64,000 nt of DNA from Bacillus sp. NP157 (lineage in GTDB: Bacteria > Pseudomonadota > Gammaproteobacteria > Xanthomonadales > Rhodanobacteraceae): the NCBI GenBank assembly GCA_018889975.1, contig CP076546.1, forward strand, positions 3,782,001 to 3,846,000, given 5' to 3'. Position 1 is the stretch's first letter; each line of letters begins with the position of its first letter. A model generated the notes under the pieces. The model was not told where the DNA came from and searched no databases. It saw only the letters and a list, made by a program, of their open reading frames with translations. Shown piece by piece: positions 13,989 to 28,592 of the stretch. The translations under genes and the position numbers were made by a program.

Positions 13989-14717
13989 TCACTTTTTTGC
14001 TCTCCTGATCGAATTTGCTACTGCCGCGCAAACATCGGCTGTTTGATTAAACGTGAGTTCGCCCAATGCGCCAACCATCCACGAAAGCGCACCTTGCTGT
14101 CGTCGCGCGTTGATCCGCTCTTCCATCGCGCGCCTTTCTAGGAGCGCCAATGCATTGAGATCAAGCCCTCTAACCGTTCGCCTTCCTTTGGCAGTACGCC
14201 ACCGATAAATCCAGCCTTTTAGAATCGTTATATGTTGACTGTATCGGTCGTGATGAGGGTGCAGCCACCGATAGTCACTTTCCGATACCGGAAGCGATGA
14301 GGGCGAAGGCGAGATATTCTTCAATACCTGGCTGATTCTGCTTCCAGGATCAGGAAACACGTGCTTCGATACCTTCGCTTTGATCAACGATTGAAAATGA
14401 CGATACGCGCGATATTTCTGTGTGTTGCATGTCGCGCAGCTCAAGCCAAGGTTTAGAATTTCGAAGCGATATTCTGGAAAAGACGCCTTCTCCAGTACAT
14501 GTTCAAGGTGGGTCACGTTGTCATCCGAAAGATGCCGCCTACAGTAGCAACATCGACCGTGCTGTGCTCTGCGCAGATCGGCTTTCAAATTCACCTTGAA
14601 GGCGCGCACGACGGTGGCATTGCTGTCCCAATCGAAGCGAAGCAAACGCGCCATAGTGACATTGCCCGTCATTGTCGGAGAAGGAGAAATATGTTCGAAG
14701 CCTGGACGAATAGTCAT
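13989..14717 (-). CDS. ptuB: HNH endonuclease, Septu PtuB-like
   Basis: A 242-residue protein with an HNH/zinc-ribbon core: CCYC (residues 56-59), LEH with the catalytic-type His at 73, and LSCATCNTQK (94-101). This layout matches HNH effectors paired with ATPases in Septu systems and in some retrons (PtuB). The start ATG overlaps the stop of the upstream ATPase gene (ATGA), so the two are translationally coupled. Base composition is clearly more AT-rich than neighbours, indicating transfer. No reverse transcriptase is nearby, arguing against a retron. Predicted role: nucleic-acid cleavage in anti-phage defence. Confidence 0.75.
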   Translation of the reverse strand: MTIRPGFEHISPSPTMTGNVTMARLLRFDWDSNATVVRAFKVNLKADLRRAQHGRCCYCRRHLSDDNVTHLEHVLEKASFPEYRFEILNLGLSCATCNTQKYRAYRHFQSLIKAKVSKHVFPDPGSRISQVLKNISPSPSSLPVSESDYRWLHPHHDRYSQHITILKGWIYRWRTAKGRRTVRGLDLNALALLERRAMEERINARRQQGALSWMVGALGELTFNQTADVCAAVANSIRRAKK

Positions 14718-16090
14718 ACTTCACCCAGACTGATTAGTGCATCAATCACCTCAACGAGCGGATCGCCCTCGTCCAGTCTGATTCGAATGCTTGAAAGCTC
14801 CTTCTGCAGAGCTTCAAACTCCGACGATTGATGCTCGTTACGCTCTACGAGCCCTACCGCCTTTTGAACAACGTCGACGATAGCTTTGTTTCTACTTGAA
14901 GCAATGCCAAATTGTTCGAAAAGGATCTGGTCAGAAGACTTACCATAGGCTGCTTCGCCGGGCTCGCTCGCCTCGGGGGCGTCCATATCTACTACTGCCG
15001 CATCTTCAGGCGCATTCGAAACAATAAGCGGCGAGTGCGTGGCTGCAATCAAATGGCAGTCTCGGTGATCTTGAACAAGTGAAGAGAGCAAATCCATCAA
15101 TTGAAGTTGCCATTGTGGATGCAAGCTTCCCTCGGGCTCATCGATCAAGAGGACGGCGTCATCTGCCACCGCAAACAGCGCGCCCATCGCAACTGTGAAG
15201 TAGTGGAACTCGCCTGAGCTCAGTTCAAAAATCGATATTGATTTCGAGGTCTCAAATTTATTCGCGTTATGAAGCGGACGAACCTCAATATCAAGAATGC
15301 GAAGATAGTCATTCATTAGACCGAGCCTGATCGCACCCGGAGAGATCGCTACCTTGCCACTGTTTACCAAGGGATCTTCTCCTCCGAGGCTCAGCACGCT
15401 ATGACGCCCTCCGGCGCGCACAAACTCGTCGAGGTTTTCAAAATCGTCGTAATGAGTTGTTGAGAGGATGTACGCGGCGCGTTCTTTCGAAACTCGCGGT
15501 CCTTTCACCCCTTCATCCGCTTGAGATCGAGTCCCACTAGCAAGCCGCTGCATGTATCGGAGTGTGTACTGATCTCTAATAAGCTTGCGATTGAGATGGG
15601 TCGATGTTTCGACCCTGGCGCTTAGTACAGCAGAGAGACCTATCGTCTTCAGTGATTCTGAGAACACCGGGTGAGAGAAACGCGCCCAATTCTCCTCAGC
15701 AAGCATGAGGGGAAGAAGGGCCTCCATGGGCTCCCTTCTACTCAGGAGATTCGCGCCAACTAGCTGTCCGAAATATAGATAGTTTGGCTTGTCAAAATCC
15801 GTGGGCCTGCCGCCCTTCGACTTTGCCGGAAATCGATCCACAGCGGAGCCGGAGAAACATATAACCCGCGTACTACCGGTATCGACCGAAGGCTTTACAA
15901 GCTCCACGGAATCCAAATGGTCCGATGAAATCAGAGAAGAGACGATTGTCTTGAGTAAGGTGCTTTTCCCCGAGCCATTTCTCCCCGTAACAATCGTCAC
16001 CGCGGATTCGCTACCCTGGGTTGGCAATAGGAGAATATTCGTTTCTGGCCCGTTCTTCGGTCGCAGCCATACCGACTCAATCCTTGGCAT
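14714..16090 (-). CDS. ptuA: ABC-type AAA ATPase, Septu PtuA-like
   Basis: A 458-residue soluble ATPase of the AAA_15/AAA_21 (SMC/RecF-like) type. Walker A GRNGSGKST is at 36-44, the signature LSSGE at 290-294, Walker B LLIDEPEGSLHP with Asp-Glu at 317-318, and the H-loop ATHSP at 351-355. No TOPRIM domain is seen, so it is not an OLD nuclease. Paired with an overlapping HNH gene it fits PtuA of Septu, where the ATPase and nuclease form one complex. ATG 16090 has GGGA upstream; a longer frame to 16159 is less likely. Confidence 0.77.
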   Translation of the reverse strand: MPRIESVWLRPKNGPETNILLLPTQGSESAVTIVTGRNGSGKSTLLKTIVSSLISSDHLDSVELVKPSVDTGSTRVICFSGSAVDRFPAKSKGGRPTDFDKPNYLYFGQLVGANLLSRREPMEALLPLMLAEENWARFSHPVFSESLKTIGLSAVLSARVETSTHLNRKLIRDQYTLRYMQRLASGTRSQADEGVKGPRVSKERAAYILSTTHYDDFENLDEFVRAGGRHSVLSLGGEDPLVNSGKVAISPGAIRLGLMNDYLRILDIEVRPLHNANKFETSKSISIFELSSGEFHYFTVAMGALFAVADDAVLLIDEPEGSLHPQWQLQLMDLLSSLVQDHRDCHLIAATHSPLIVSNAPEDAAVVDMDAPEASEPGEAAYGKSSDQILFEQFGIASSRNKAIVDVVQKAVGLVERNEHQSSEFEALQKELSSIRIRLDEGDPLVEVIDALISLGEV

Positions 16091-16361
16091 TTTTTCCCTT
16101 TGTTCGCGTGTGATCGCTTGGTGGGAGCGGCCCGACAATGTTGCTACGAAATGCAACACGAGCCTTTGAGCTTCTGACTTGTGATGTCTTGACGTGTTCA
16201 GCCGTAGGCGCCTCTCTCTTTGTTCGAATGGGAGGCGTCTCCGACTGGCTAGCGAGGGCTCCGAAAGGCTGACACGAACTCTCGCTGTTGCCGTAGTTCA
16301 TCGTCAAGGTTTTACCGTCCCATATCCATACGGCGGATTGAGGCACCGTCGTTCTGCGTCG

Positions 16362-21605: not shown

Positions 21606-21665
21606 GTGTTTCCCCCTCGTCGCCCTGCGCAGTGTCGGTGATAAACGGTATCGCGATGCGCGATG

Positions 21666-22130
21666 TCAGAACAGCTCCCCTTGCGGCGAAACAATCCGCG
21701 GCGCCACGAACCGCGACGTATCCAGCACCGTATCCCACGCCTTGTGCAGCTCCGCCGTCCGCGTGGCCATCTGCACCTGCTTGCGAATGACGTCTGCGAA
21801 TACCAACACCACGTTGCGTTCGGCCATCGGCGCGAGGATGCCCAGGGCGCGTTCACTAAGCGTGTTCTTGGTAACGTTGGTGAACTTATGCTTGCATTCG
21901 TTGAGCGGCGCCAGCGCCCCACGCGTGAACCGCCATTGCTTCTCGACCGGCCGATACGGATCGGTTCTCCTGCCGATTCTGACCGGTTTGCGAATGTAGT
22001 TCATCTTCGCCGGATCGCCGCGCAGAAGCTCAACGAGGTTGGTCTTGGTGAACAGCTTGGCCTCGAAGTCTAGGCCGGTCGTCAGGTTGAGTCAGCCGTG
22101 CGAGGGGCGGGCGTAGCAGTGGATTCAGCG
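21666..22130 (-). pseudogene. Decayed partial copy of PA0069-type radical SAM gene
   Basis: This stretch aligns with the 3' two-thirds of the intact gene at 27510-28592. It keeps the shared C-terminus (DTSRFVAPRIVSPQGELF) but lacks about 390 bp internally, joined in frame at a Val-Phe found at both edges (VF-ADVIRK). In the left part the Fe-S motif CIYC has its first Cys codon changed to TGA and a further TGA follows, so it cannot work. The first 69 bp after the 3' end match the intact gene perfectly. It marks the left edge of the accessory island. Confidence 0.9.
21682..21750. repeat. 69-bp perfect direct repeat, left copy
   Basis: Starting TGCGGCGAAACAATCCGCGG, this 69-bp stretch is identical to 27526-27594. 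It covers the 3' coding end of the radical SAM gene and its decayed copy. The two copies bracket a low-GC island of about 5.4 kb. Confidence 0.9.
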
Positions 22131-22471: not shown

Positions 22472-23242
22472 GTGGATGCTAAAGAAATCACAAGGCGAAT
22501 CTGTGCTGGCGTACTAAATGCTCTGGATACTAAGCGACTACTTTTTGGCATCGAGGGCGACAGCACCAATAATCCGGAGCTTCGTCCAGAGTACATTACG
22601 ACAATCGAAGTAGCCAAGTCGCTCACAGATATCGATCATGATGTCTGTGTCGAGGCTCCTATGAAGGATCTGCGTGCGATTGCTCTTATCTTCTCGATGT
22701 TGAACGAGCAACCCGGCGAGGTACGAGAAGAAATACGGGCGAAGTATCTTTTCGGAAAGAAAGATAGTAAGCGCTTGGATGTCTTGGTAATGCCGGGGGG
22801 TGTGACCGGCCTTCCGTTGCTTATGGTCGAAGCTAAGCTGAGTGTTGGCAATTTCTCTGGCATCAAGAAAGACATAGATCGACTGATCAGGATATTCGAT
22901 ATGTTCAGCGAAGTCGGCGCGTTTAAACCTGGAAGGACGCTATACGCTGCGGCGGTATTTCACGAATGGATCGAGGGTAGTGATGGCGGACGCGCAAGCG
23001 AGGCTGGTGCGCGAACGGTAGCAGACATTAAGTCGTACTTATGCACCGTCCAGCACGGCCGTCCATGGCTTTACACAAACGCCGCCCTGCTTGACACAGC
23101 AGCACTGATTGTCCCGGCCGTCACTTACGTGGAGTCGTATCCGGACGACACGTACGAAGAAGTTCTCACGAGGAAAAGCCTTACCTTTCTCCCAGGCCTC
23201 GTGTTGATGGGTATCAGCCCAGACGTTTCCGACGCGTTCTAG
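22472..23242 (+). CDS. PD-(D/E)XK nuclease-like protein of accessory island
   Basis: A 256-residue protein starting at GTG 22472. The core RLDVLVM followed by PLLMVEAKLS gives Asp103 and Glu120-x-Lys122, the spacing and hydrophobic strands of a PD-(D/E)XK nuclease active site. An acidic Glu in the first helix region (IEVAKSL, Glu46) could complete it. Composition is AT-rich compared with the chromosome. It is convergent with the DUF4145 gene. I recognise no named family; a restriction-like or defence nuclease is the best guess, though nuclease-fold proteins can be inactive. Confidence 0.6.
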   Translation: MDAKEITRRICAGVLNALDTKRLLFGIEGDSTNNPELRPEYITTIEVAKSLTDIDHDVCVEAPMKDLRAIALIFSMLNEQPGEVREEIRAKYLFGKKDSKRLDVLVMPGGVTGLPLLMVEAKLSVGNFSGIKKDIDRLIRIFDMFSEVGAFKPGRTLYAAAVFHEWIEGSDGGRASEAGARTVADIKSYLCTVQHGRPWLYTNAALLDTAALIVPAVTYVESYPDDTYEEVLTRKSLTFLPGLVLMGISPDVSDAF

Positions 23243-23404: not shown

Positions 23405-24154
23405 TCAATTCGCAATGCTGTCTTCAACCGACGGCATTAAATTCCCCAGCTCTTGCATGGCTGGCTCGACCGGGGCCTCCTTTCTTGGAAGCCTTTTCAG
23501 TTCATTTTGACTCACGCGCTTTAACGTATAGACCTGTTCAAGCATGTGGTCGATCACTGAGAAGGCCGCAGTCACCTGTTTCGGCGTCGCCTTCTCTGCG
23601 CTGTGAGTCGCGCTGTTGCCTAGCTCTCTGATGGCATGCAGGCACTGCTCGCCATCCTCGGTGATGAGTGATCGCTCGCGGAGCTTGGTTATCTTCTTGT
23701 CAAGGTCGCGACCTTTAACGTTTAGGACTCTACAGAAAGTTTCGACGATATTCCTGATGCCTTGACCCGTCAGGACCATGAGCCCTCCATCGAAGGCCTT
23801 GATCGTTTCGCGATAAATCTCAGCAAGCTCGAAAGGCAGTTGCCATATCTCCGCGCGCGGTGTGTAAACATTGCGATGAGGATACTGCTCGCGCGTCGTC
23901 AAATATTCTTCTGAACGAGGATCGTAGTCCTCAGAGTTTGTCGAAAGGCGCTGAAAGGACAGCTGATCGCAGCCCTGACACTGGACAATCATGTTTTCCT
24001 CTGTCCAGTGGTAGACGTAGCCTGGGGAGTGTTCGCTTCCATGCTCCGTCACACCGGTTATCCTTCGATGCCATGTTTCAACGCGGCAGCGATTGCATGA
24101 GTGTTTAAATCGTTCACCTTCACCCGTAGCCTCATATCGTGTTGTTGCGCTCAT
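23405..24154 (-). CDS. DUF4145 domain protein with zinc ribbon
   Basis: A 249-residue protein. The N-terminal zinc-ribbon pairs are CNRC (about 20-23) and CQGC (about 59-62), followed by a helical DUF4145 domain: GGLMVLTGQGIRNIVETFCRVLNVKGRDLDKKI, then CLHAIRELGNSATHSA. The last motif (R-x-L-G-N-x-A-x-H) is the DUF4145 hallmark shared with HEPN-like proteins. DUF4145 proteins are often found in restriction and defence loci; the role here is not known. It lies downstream of the three-gene operon on the same strand, 92 bp away, so may be its last member. Confidence 0.78.
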   Translation of the reverse strand: MSATTRYEATGEGERFKHSCNRCRVETWHRRITGVTEHGSEHSPGYVYHWTEENMIVQCQGCDQLSFQRLSTNSEDYDPRSEEYLTTREQYPHRNVYTPRAEIWQLPFELAEIYRETIKAFDGGLMVLTGQGIRNIVETFCRVLNVKGRDLDKKITKLRERSLITEDGEQCLHAIRELGNSATHSAEKATPKQVTAAFSVIDHMLEQVYTLKRVSQNELKRLPRKEAPVEPAMQELGNLMPSVEDSIAN

Positions 24155-24246: not shown

Positions 24247-24930
24247 CTACATCACCGCTTGACCCAAGGTGTCTCTGAGAATCTGCACAACTATCTGCTC
24301 CTCGTTTCCAAATCCTTGGACGGAGGCGACTGCATCTCGCGCGAGTATGACGGCTCCGCGCCTATCGGACGTACGACGTGCCTTTATCTTATCGATCGTA
24401 TGGGGTTTCCGCCCGACAAGATCAGATACCGAATCGACGACGTTACCAGTACCGGAAAGCACCGCCTTGGCTGATATGCTTGGCGTGATTCTGATTCCTG
24501 ATAGCTGAAGTGATTCAACGCGCCATGCCTCGCCAGAATTTCGTTCAAGCAGGCGCAGCCACTGCAATGCGTCGACGCGTGATTGTTCCACGGTCAATCG
24601 AAAACCACAGACCTCAGATAGCGAGGAGATGAGTACGTTCGACGATCTAGGCTCGTTCACCATTTCCAGGATGGACTCGCCCGTATTCGCAACGAATGCG
24701 TACTGCTTATACTGAATCTGATGAGTGGTGAACTCTTCACCGAAAGGATCAATGTCAGTTATATCGAACTCTAGGCGCTCAACGTACCTGGCTTCGACGT
24801 ACGTCTTTCTTACGCGGTCGACGACAAATCCTGATGCTCGTTCGGGGTCGAATGGGTTTGTACGTAGTCCTTTTGCTAGCTTCGAGGCGTCCATGGGCCA
24901 AGAGGCTGCCATCCAGCGGTGACGAGTCAT
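24247..24930 (-). CDS. Island operon protein C, unknown
   Basis: A 227-residue protein, third gene of a compact operon; its ATG lies one base after the stop of the preceding gene. There are no transmembrane segments, and the pattern is mixed alpha/beta: FVVDRVRKTYVEARYVERLEFDITDIDPFGEEFTTHQ, a region likely to form beta-hairpins, and a C-terminal helical part. I see no catalytic motif. The start could be an internal Met (residue 13) instead. Coupling to genes with nuclease-like features suggests a structural or specificity subunit, which is inference only. Confidence 0.6.
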   Translation of the reverse strand: MTRHRWMAASWPMDASKLAKGLRTNPFDPERASGFVVDRVRKTYVEARYVERLEFDITDIDPFGEEFTTHQIQYKQYAFVANTGESILEMVNEPRSSNVLISSLSEVCGFRLTVEQSRVDALQWLRLLERNSGEAWRVESLQLSGIRITPSISAKAVLSGTGNVVDSVSDLVGRKPHTIDKIKARRTSDRRGAVILARDAVASVQGFGNEEQIVVQILRDTLGQAVM

Positions 24931-24931
24931 G

Positions 24932-26047
24932 CTATTCGTCGCTCCCTATCGGCGTCACGTCCAATGCCTCTGCCTTCGCAAGGCTGCTTTCGGCTGCAGC
25001 TTCCAACAATAAAAGTAGCTGCTTTCTCTCTCCATCTTGCGGCGGTCGCTGCGATTTATTGTAGCTGCCATTAGCAAAAGCTGTTACGCCAGTGACACCG
25101 TATTTGAACCCCGTACCATCGGCCTTGCCTTCGAATGCTGCTTCAAGGGACAGAATGTGGGGAGGTTTTTCGTTCCGTACGGCCCGCCAGGAGATGGATG
25201 TCACGAAAAAACCCTTCGCAATTAGGTCCTGAAACATGCTCGACGCGACCAGATTGTCCCCACTCAGTGCCACATGCTTCACGATACCCAGCATTTCCTG
25301 TTCGGCAGCTTTGTTTTCTTCGATTGCTACGTCGAGATCATCCGCGTGAGCGGTGCCAGCTTGCAAAGTTGCGACACGAACTCTCGTGACCGTTTGAAGC
25401 TTATGTCCAGCGATGCTCACGATGAGGCTGGTGAAAAACGCCGTCCTGGCTTCGGGAGTTCCGAGGTGGGACACGCGGATTTCTGATGTTGAGATCTTCG
25501 GTCTAGAAGTTTCACTTAAGATTCGATTGATTTGAGCGACAATCGTCCGTGACTTTTCCGTGGCGGGAATGCGGACTACCGTCTTTCCTCCTTCGTTGGA
25601 GAAAGATAGCTCGGCATCACGCAGGGTCTTCTGTAGAAGACGAGTTCTCGAATACTCCGTCTCCTCGTAACCGACGGCCATGATCAACTCAGTGGTTCCG
25701 CGTTTTCGCGCAGCCACATCGTCGCGGGGGTTCAGCCCGTGGTACTTGGCTATGGCGTCTCGTAGTTCGCTCTGCGAAACCTCTTCCGAAAGGGTTACGG
25801 TAGCCATACGCTCACCTCGACGTGACGGCTCCCCACGTTTTATCATGCCAGCGACATCGTGGAAGTCATGTTGCAGGAGCGACAAGCGGTCCGCTAACGT
25901 CTCGCGAGACTCTCGGTGCGAGTAGAAGATTCCGCGATCTCTCCCTAATTCATGGAGAACGCTCGGAGTCAGACGCTGCTTGGATGCCTGCAAGAGATCG
26001 TATATGTCCTTGTCGGTGGCGAACGGGATTGATGGCGGCTTAGACAT
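24932..26047 (-). CDS. Island operon protein B, unknown
   Basis: A 371-residue soluble protein. Residues 8-60 form a small helical domain (DIYDLLQASKQRLTPSVLHELGRDRGIFYS, then ETLADRLSLLQHDFHDV) that looks like a SAP/HeH-style nucleic-acid-binding hairpin or winged helix. The rest is mixed alpha/beta, with a TRVRVATL strand and a C-terminal Gly/Lys-rich part (FKYGVTGVTAFANGSYNKSQ). No nuclease or ATPase motif is visible. Its ATG overlaps the end of the upstream gene by 8 bp and its stop is one base from the next start, so all three proteins are probably made together and act as a complex. Confidence 0.62.
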   Translation of the reverse strand: MSKPPSIPFATDKDIYDLLQASKQRLTPSVLHELGRDRGIFYSHRESRETLADRLSLLQHDFHDVAGMIKRGEPSRRGERMATVTLSEEVSQSELRDAIAKYHGLNPRDDVAARKRGTTELIMAVGYEETEYSRTRLLQKTLRDAELSFSNEGGKTVVRIPATEKSRTIVAQINRILSETSRPKISTSEIRVSHLGTPEARTAFFTSLIVSIAGHKLQTVTRVRVATLQAGTAHADDLDVAIEENKAAEQEMLGIVKHVALSGDNLVASSMFQDLIAKGFFVTSISWRAVRNEKPPHILSLEAAFEGKADGTGFKYGVTGVTAFANGSYNKSQRPPQDGERKQLLLLLEAAAESSLAKAEALDVTPIGSDE

Positions 26048-27083
26048 AATCCATTCCTACCGTGACCTCAGAAAATACGGCTTGGACCTGATTCAGATTG
26101 TCGATCTTGATTGCTTCGACCTGTAGCCGGAATTCGCTCTTTTTCTGAGATAGATTAGCGCCGTCACTGGACCCTGATTCCGCCGGCTCGTAATTTGCCA
26201 CGTAGCGCTGACAAGCTCGTTGGAATACGGCCTTAGTGTGCTGCGCGGCGTTCAGCGTTCGAATACGGATTTCCGCTGATCCGATCAGTTGATAGTGGCG
26301 AAGATAGTCGAGAAGGTACAGAAACTCTTCTTCGGAATCACCTGCACGCCGGTAGTAGATTAGGATGCCTTCAACCGCCGTCAGTGGGCGGCGGTACTGC
26401 ATGATGATCCATGGGCCGGTTAGCATCTCGAGTGTTGCGGCCTTGGCCTGATCTCTCTGCACGTTCGCGTGCCTGTCGAGATCCGGGTAATAGAACCTGC
26501 AGTGCTCGTACATAGGCACGCTGTCGTCGCCTTTACGCCCGCGCAGCTGGCGAATATCCATAGCCACGTTGTTTATCCAGAATACGTCTTCTGGCCCGAA
26601 TACCGCGATAGAAGTGCCTTCGGCTAGGTCTAACTTTTCGTTGCGGTAGCCTGCTAGGTGCGTTCCGAAATCCTTATCGTATTGCCCGTCGTGGTTGTAG
26701 ATGAAAAGGAGGCCTCGGACGTTTGGTGTGTGTCCTTCGTGTAAGTAGTTTTCTTGCCACGATTCGCTTGTCTCGGCGCACATGGCCTGTCGGGCAAGGC
26801 TACGCAAGGCTCCTTGGACAGATGCGCTAGTTATCGTTTTTTTTCCGTAGCTCTTGAGGTCGCAATGCACGTAGGTACGGCTTCTCGAGTACGGCTCGTC
26901 GTAGTAAAAGACAACGTCCGCTGGATGCGTCTCTGTGCCATGCAGCTCTGGCACACTGCAAGCCCAGTTGATGTTTTTCGGACCTACTCGCTCCCACATG
27001 AATTCGCCAAAGATGTCGTCGGCTAGGCGCTCAGCCATCTTGGCCTTGTTTTCGTTTTCCCCTGCCATCCTCGCTATCCCCAT
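26040..27083 (-). CDS. Island operon protein A, PD-(D/E)XK-like
   Basis: A 347-residue protein leading the three-gene operon. Residues 45-90 read VPELHGTETHPADVVFYY, then YVHCDLKSYGKK: Asp56 followed after a hairpin by Asp75-x-Lys77, the strand-turn-strand layout of a PD-(D/E)XK nuclease with Glu46 as a possible helix acid. The C-terminal half is alpha/beta without a known motif. The start is uncertain: ATG 27083, 27068 and 27038 are all possible, the last with AAGG upstream. Composition is AT-rich. A nuclease effector of an uncharacterised defence-type system is the leading hypothesis. Confidence 0.62.
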   Translation of the reverse strand: MGIARMAGENENKAKMAERLADDIFGEFMWERVGPKNINWACSVPELHGTETHPADVVFYYDEPYSRSRTYVHCDLKSYGKKTITSASVQGALRSLARQAMCAETSESWQENYLHEGHTPNVRGLLFIYNHDGQYDKDFGTHLAGYRNEKLDLAEGTSIAVFGPEDVFWINNVAMDIRQLRGRKGDDSVPMYEHCRFYYPDLDRHANVQRDQAKAATLEMLTGPWIIMQYRRPLTAVEGILIYYRRAGDSEEEFLYLLDYLRHYQLIGSAEIRIRTLNAAQHTKAVFQRACQRYVANYEPAESGSSDGANLSQKKSEFRLQVEAIKIDNLNQVQAVFSEVTVGMDYV

Positions 27084-27509: not shown

Positions 27510-28592
27510 TCAAAACAGCTCTCCCTGCGGCGAAACAATCCGCGGCGCCACGAACCGCGACGTATCCAGCACCGTATCCCACGCCTTGTGCAGCCCCACC
27601 TTGCGGGTAGCCACCTGCACCCGCTTGCGGATGATGTCCGCGAACACGCCCTGCCCGCGCATGCGGGTCGCGAAATTACTGTCGTAGTCCTTACCGCCAT
27701 TCATCTGCTGGATCAGGCTGATGATGTGCGCGGCGCGATCGGGGTAGTGCAGTTCCAGCCACTCGCGGAAGAGCTGCTTCAGTTCATGCGGTAGGCGCAC
27801 GCAGGTGTAGCCAATCGAGTTGGCGCCGTTTTCCGCGGCACGCTCGATGATGCCTTCCACGTCCTTCTCGTTAAGCGCCGGGATGATCGGCGCGACCAGC
27901 ACGCCCACGGGCACGCCGGCGTCGCGTAGCGACTTCACCGCCTGCAGGCGACGATGCGGAGCCGATGCACGTGGCTCGAGCTTCGACGCGAGCTTGTTGT
28001 CGAGCGAGTTAACCGATACGAACACCTGGACGAGGTTGCGTTCGGCCATCGGCGCGAGGATGTCGAGGTCGCGCTCGATCAGCGCGTTCTTCGTCACGAT
28101 GGTGCACGGATGGTTGCACTCGTTGAGCAGCGCCAGCGCCGCACGGGTCAACCGCCATTGCTTCTCGATCGGCTGGTACGGATCGGTGTTGCTGCCGATA
28201 TTGATCGGCTTGCAGGTGTAGTTCTTCTTCGCCAGCTCACCGCGCAGGATCTCGGCGAGGTTGGTCTTGGCGAAGAGCTTGGTCTCGAAGTCGAGGCCGG
28301 CCGACAGGTTGAGGTAACCGTGCGAGGGGCGGGCGTAGCAGTAGATGCAGCCGTGCTCGCAACCGCGATAGGGATTCAACGCCTGGTCGAAGCCGATGTC
28401 CGGTGAGTCGTTGCGCGAGATGACGCTGCGCGCGAATTCCTCGCGGACGCTGGTGGCGGGGCGGCGGTCGTCTTCCTCGCGGTGCCAGCCGTCGTCCTCG
28501 GCCTGGTAACGCGTGGATTCGAAGCGGCCCTCCGGATTGGAGGCGGCACCGCGGCCCTTGTGCAGGCGGGTCATGGGGATGGGCTCTGACAT
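27510..28592 (-). CDS. PA0069 family radical SAM protein
   Basis: A 360-residue radical SAM enzyme. The Fe-S cluster motif CEHGCIYC is near residue 78, followed by YARPSHGYLNLSAGLDFETKLFAK, a signature of the SplB/PA0069 group. The barrel continues with INIGSNTDPYQPIEKQW. The reaction is not established for this family, though relatives include spore photoproduct lyase-like proteins. The last 25 residues are shared with a decayed copy at 21666-22130, and 69 bp of its 3' end are repeated there exactly. The intact copy borders the accessory island on the right. Confidence 0.9.
   Translation of the reverse strand: MSEPIPMTRLHKGRGAASNPEGRFESTRYQAEDDGWHREEDDRRPATSVREEFARSVISRNDSPDIGFDQALNPYRGCEHGCIYCYARPSHGYLNLSAGLDFETKLFAKTNLAEILRGELAKKNYTCKPINIGSNTDPYQPIEKQWRLTRAALALLNECNHPCTIVTKNALIERDLDILAPMAERNLVQVFVSVNSLDNKLASKLEPRASAPHRRLQAVKSLRDAGVPVGVLVAPIIPALNEKDVEGIIERAAENGANSIGYTCVRLPHELKQLFREWLELHYPDRAAHIISLIQQMNGGKDYDSNFATRMRGQGVFADIIRKRVQVATRKVGLHKAWDTVLDTSRFVAPRIVSPQGELF
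27526..27594. repeat. 69-bp perfect direct repeat, right copy
   Basis: Identical to 21682-21750, inside the 3' end of the intact radical SAM gene. Similarity continues beyond it at a lower level into the gene, so the repeat is the best-conserved part of a longer duplication. Confidence 0.9.

Follow-up and report, generated by a model that had tools for sequence, protein, structure and literature searches.

The subject of this analysis is a set of three tightly packed genes in a 64,000-nucleotide stretch of DNA from Bacillus sp. NP157 (contig CP076546.1, positions 3,782,001 to 3,846,000; hereafter the window). On the evidence of its sequence, the trio is a diverged member of the named 3HP defence system, whose proteins are called Hp1, Hp2 and Hp3. 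We further propose, with a probability of about 50%, that Hp2 and Hp3 form a heterodimer of the RdgC fold that clamps DNA and positions or licenses Hp1, a PD-(D/E)XK nuclease, to cut. The three genes are as follows.

26040-27083, minus strand: A (Hp1), open reading frame of 347 amino acids; predicted PD-(D/E)XK nuclease
24932-26047, minus strand: B (Hp2), open reading frame of 371 amino acids; predicted N-terminal helical domain and RdgC-like fold
24247-24930, minus strand: C (Hp3), open reading frame of 227 amino acids; predicted RdgC-like fold across nearly the entire length

An earlier reading of the window (the original prediction) described these as packed genes of unrecognised proteins with an 8-bp A/B overlap and a 1-bp B/C gap. 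A recheck of the open reading frames of the window reproduced the coordinates, lengths, overlap and gap exactly. The proteins appeared unrecognised because they have no real match in Pfam or NCBIfam: the Pfam scan returned nothing for A and chance-level matches only for B and C, and the NCBIfam scan returned nothing for any of the three. The PADLOC defence library (2023 model set) does assign them. Specifically, A matches Hp1 (PDLC03004, E 8.6e-54, residues 6-298), B matches Hp2 (PDLC03005, E 4.4e-32, residues 8-355) and C matches Hp3 (PDLC03006, E 3.6e-12, residues 4-205), each being the only PADLOC model matched at E up to 1. B and C, for which no named family had been recognised, are thus placed. 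The window trio is adjacent, on one strand and in the order Hp1-Hp2-Hp3, and shares both the order and the tight packing of 3HP (Rst_3HP). In PHROGs, the trio falls into three families without assigned function (7059, 6531 and 5850; A against phrog_7059, E 5e-94).

What is 3HP? A homologous trio in a Vibrio phage record is labelled Rst_3HP__Hp1/2/3, and full-length matches to the same PADLOC models (792, 820 and 520 bits) are given by the trio of a P2-like prophage on an E. coli plasmid. An 87% identical trio, on an E. coli chromosome, lies in a P2-like prophage, flanked by a portal gene and a replication endonuclease gene; these are presumably the genes known as gpA and gpQ. The P2 hotspot is described as lying between gpA and gpQ, and a three-gene system with no clear predicted domain is reported to protect E. 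coli against P1 when cloned (PMC9122126). The term "3HP" does not occur in that text; a table row in PMC10855318 gives 3HP, PARIS and DUF4238 one shared reference. From the phage label, the E. coli prophage trio, its position in P2 prophages, the wording of PMC9122126 and the shared citation in PMC10855318, we firmly infer that Hp1-Hp2-Hp3 is 3HP and is the three-gene P2-hotspot system of Rousset et al. 2022 (PMC9122126). The same evidence, with the PADLOC matches, rules out the undescribed system that had been proposed. The suggested role in phage defence fared better: an anti-phage function of the window trio is supported by homology, both through the 3HP models and through the P1-protective E. 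coli system. Relative to the E. coli 3HP trio, window A, B and C are 34%, 25% and 20% identical, and the window trio is located in an island of the chromosome, next to a radical-SAM gene, whereas E. coli 3HP occupies the P2 hotspot. Among passages available to us, 3HP is filed under "Unknown" mechanism in P. aeruginosa (PMC10855318), is mostly prophage-borne in Salmonella (PMC11305592) and is mentioned in Vibrio europaeus (PMC12824646).

The three genes behave as one unit, as the original prediction had supposed. Wider scans of genome contigs and viral contigs yielded 126 and 98 relatives, respectively, and the best 80 from each were kept. The full set comprised 178 sources (177 loci and the window), of which 177 have an A open reading frame, and all three genes are present at 167 of these 177. 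The ten incomplete loci are two short excerpts of the window's own genome, seven loci cut by a contig end and one Nannocystis locus (L072), in which B is present and C was not recognised. Removing the own-genome excerpts (L001 and L005) and loci with identical Hp1 left 155 distinct A proteins including the window, and removing loci with fewer than 2200 bases downstream left 144, near-identical copies being kept separate. All 144 have B, and 143 have both B and C. The loci were collected via A, so these counts show that B and C accompany A, not the reverse. The packing is equally consistent. With each gene taken to begin at its first possible start codon, A and B overlap or are separated by no more than 12 bases at 147 of 148 junctions, and B and C overlap or are separated by no more than 14 bases at 146 of 148. 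Hence, the tight packing is not due to chance. A mirror-tree test of 136 loci found correlations among the proteins, of a kind that block inheritance alone could yield, since the null ignores shared ancestry.

By its motif, A is a putative PD-(D/E)XK-type nuclease, as had been predicted. The putative active site, identified by conservation, is as follows.

26853-27059, minus strand: E9 ... H53-P54-x-D56 ... D75-L76-K77 of A (codons E9 to K77)

The Asp56...Asp75-x-Lys77 pattern noted originally is indeed present, and E9, H53, P54, D56, D75, L76 and K77 are each conserved in 153 of the 155 distinct A proteins. H53-D56 falls within the peptide patterns used to collect homologues; E9, D75 and K77 fall outside them. 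An acidic residue in the first helix, followed by PxD and then D-x-K, is the classic PD-(D/E)XK pattern. The RefSeq name of an E. coli homologue is "PD-(D/E)XK nuclease domain-containing protein", and two phage records annotate an A homologue as "nuclease related protein". The predicted nuclease activity rests on the motif because likeness to the Mrr_cat profile failed a stricter shuffle test. An initial hint of Mrr_cat membership (P 0.017, with D56 and K77 on Mrr residues) was not upheld, and neither profile stood out from chance, with 69 and 60 of 120 shuffled controls scoring as high for Mrr_cat and NERD, respectively. The A profile had no match among PDB sequences, and a Pfam scan of 86 A family members returned weak, scattered matches only. 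The large alignments comprised 85 of 88 selected A proteins, 89 of 95 B and 99 of 104 C, each with the window protein added; L017, with a partial Hp1, was excluded from the first alignments.

The folds of B and C are predicted with confidence. The parts of B are as follows.

25823-26047, minus strand: residues 1-75 of B, helical N-terminal domain with model helices at 12-21, 28-37, 48-56 and 62-72
24965-25822, minus strand: residues 76-361 of B, RdgC-like two-repeat region identified by structural match

The small N-terminal helical domain attributed to B is therefore seen in the model (helices 12-72). Residues 76-361 of B and nearly all of C match solved RdgC, which is the best fold match for both models, at an identity of ~10%. 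PF04381, the RdgC family, has no match to window B and C in Pfam at E up to 1, and is not among the families listed for other members (25 of 123 for B; 25 of 45 for C). Across 90 B and 100 C members, 18 of the 90 B members match DUF4518 weakly at E up to 1, the best at 1.5e-5, and CENP-L has a match in 1 of the 100 C members (E 0.0074); matches are otherwise weak and scattered. Ten B members scanned singly added nothing firm, and the B and C profiles have chance-level matches only to PDB sequences. A hint of sequence paralogy between B and C (P 0.023) was not upheld (19 of 120 controls).

How might the three proteins work together? Because two different RdgC-fold chains are encoded beside a nuclease, B and C may pair as a heterodimeric, DNA-embracing clamp that puts A on DNA. 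In PMC11077077, RdgC is described as forming ring-shaped dimers that bind DNA, with a two-helix tip inserted after strand 4 and before strand 5 of its centre domain; Iml3-Chl4 as a horseshoe-shaped heterodimer on DNA; and lambda RexA, a phage-exclusion protein, as a dimer with structural homology to RdgC and non-specific DNA binding. In the models, short turns join B strands 140-152 and 155-161, and likewise C strands 66-82 and 87-91. Judged by the order of elements, these strands probably correspond to RdgC strands 4 and 5, where RdgC may carry the two-helix tip and B and C appear to have no long insertion. Since short turns join the matching strands, an open horseshoe of the Iml3-Chl4 kind would be likelier than the tip-closed ring of RdgC. 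The clamp would load on the DNA of the phage, or on an intermediate of replication or recombination that infection gives rise to, and would place or license A, which would cut that DNA. The helical N-domain of B could provide an extra contact, either to A or to the trigger. The pairing of B with C, the binding of DNA, the cleavage and the trigger are steps that we infer.

Other arrangements of the same parts are conceivable. For example, Hp2:Hp3 could be a built-in antitoxin or sensor that holds Hp1 inactive until infection frees it to cut host and phage nucleic acid, causing abortive infection. We consider this rather unlikely, as in the fold ranking for C both RdgC and Iml3/CENP-L stand above RnlA and align across nearly all of the modelled protein. 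The complex might also target RNA (tRNA, mRNA or a replication primer), with RdgC/TBP-like saddles holding the RNA. This is quite improbable, given that the best and full-length fold matches, RdgC and Iml3/CENP-L, are DNA binders and that PD-(D/E)XK enzymes mostly act on DNA, which they cut.

Besides 3HP itself, the known systems closest to the trio are RdgC, Iml3-Chl4/CENP-L-CENP-N and lambda RexA. RdgC is a homodimer, whereas B and C are two different chains that would pair with each other, and B has an extra helical domain. Iml3-Chl4/CENP-L-CENP-N belongs to the same fold family as B and C. To our knowledge this pair has no nuclease partner, and it is a eukaryotic kinetochore pair, unlike 3HP. 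It does provide a described case of a DNA-binding heterodimer built from two different members of the family (PMC11077077). Lambda RexA of RexAB is an RdgC-related DNA binder in a phage-borne exclusion system (PMC11077077), but RexA forms a homodimer and has RexB as its partner in the system, while 3HP combines a predicted nuclease with two RdgC-like chains; RexA is not among the 50 structural matches listed for each of B and C.

What are the implications for 3HP? First, the locus is in itself an unremarkable, diverged representative of a defence system that already has a name, but 3HP gains a concrete, testable mechanism proposal; among the papers listed from an open-licence library, none was seen to state folds or a mechanism for 3HP proteins. 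Second, users of annotation may read "3HP" as a predicted PD-(D/E)XK nuclease with two RdgC-like clamp proteins. Third, the models suggest that B and C are akin to RdgC, RexA and proteins of the kinetochore, a relationship that connects phage exclusion with the way in which DNA clamps evolved. Fourth, and tentatively, Hp2:Hp3 may topologically embrace phage DNA or forks and hand them to Hp1, making 3HP a nuclease steered by a clamp of the RdgC/CENP-L:N type and placing RdgC, RexA, 3HP and Iml3-Chl4 in one DNA-embracing family. If so, this family would have originated, or been put to use, in conflict with phages before centromeres came to employ it. We know of no other defence system in which a heterodimeric clamp of this type steers a nuclease.

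A was not found in the other 60 of 61 genomes searched, and the Hp1 model matched only the window's own genome among 369 genomes drawn from the class. Carriers make up 8 of 50,697 phage records and 21 of 72,556 plasmid records. At megablast sensitivity, 18 of 5426 complete E. coli genomes are positive, and 17 of the 18 contain 80% or more of the trio. Ten phylum labels appear in a tree of 76 A proteins, with 7 changes needed for Pseudomonadota, which is no proof of transfer; the Caldiserica (L083) and Lutibacter (L054) rows are near-copies of rows from other bins and may be stray contigs. Filamentous phages (Tubulavirales) and P2-like phages are among the carriers. The records of the filamentous Pseudomonas phages 54-4 (L006) and 99-2 (L009) are ~13 kb with 3HP at one end, and 3HP is a large cargo for such small phages. 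One IMG/VR contig (L002) carries the trio with a gene that looks Zot-like by eye, and Enterobacter and Klebsiella plasmids (L015 and L018) carry a 3HP branch with a longer Hp2 (415 amino acids) and ~30% identity to window Hp1.

With homologues known from filamentous phages, from P2-like prophages and from plasmids, in some cases beside integrase genes, the trio could instead serve the mobile element that introduced it, through exclusion or the control of recombination, phage defence being a by-product. RdgC is indeed reported to lower RecA activities (PMC11077077). This is an improbable account, because the E. coli system was protective against P1 when cloned (PMC9122126) and no integrase was found among the five island proteins scanned against Pfam. 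Clamp-guided cleavage of phage DNA is the explanation we prefer.

The island that holds the trio and its borders have the following further features.

27510-28592, minus strand: intact radical-SAM gene (Pfam E 2.5e-17), with a weak match to spore photoproduct lyase
23405-24154, minus strand: DUF4145 protein (Pfam E 4e-14; PADLOC PD-T7-4 E 2e-6; phrog_1305, "DNA binding protein")
22472-23242, plus strand: 256-amino-acid protein with a D...EAK motif by eye and chance-level family matches only
21665-22129: decayed partial copy of the radical-SAM gene, 83-89% identical to the intact gene

As originally noted, GC content is low here: each kilobase between 22 and 27 kb has 0.528-0.537 (~53%) and the two adjoining kilobases have 0.59, against values of mostly 0.63-0.69 farther out. 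The island is bracketed by the intact radical-SAM gene and its decayed partial copy. Among the 22 other genomes of the genus, 8 likewise have a partial copy at a distance of ~1-20 kb from the full gene (>80% identity in G002, G003, G007, G011, G012 and G013; ~75% in G004 and G014), with varied genes between the two copies. The radical-SAM gene therefore seems to mark the edge of an insertion hotspot that lacks a tRNA; a search of the window with ARAGORN gave no tRNA gene. The two neighbours had been thought to fit the same defence system. The DUF4145 gene is real, but as a part of the module it had one weak match outside the window among the loci scanned (L152, E 0.0003), and no match in phage records; it is possibly a separate defence gene. 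The gene at 22472-23242, called PD-(D/E)XK-like, keeps its motif by eye but has no family match beyond chance; it is single-copy in its own genome and had no match at the other loci scanned. Neither gene is retained as part of the system. The same hotspot in relative G002 is occupied by a set of genes (L210:5567-9206) that by eye resembles an ABC-three-component defence locus. A second low-GC patch of the window, ~8 kb from the trio, contains a complete-looking Septu pair.

14714-16159, minus strand: PtuA (PADLOC E 1.5e-117)
13989-14717, minus strand: HNH-like PtuB (E 9e-85)
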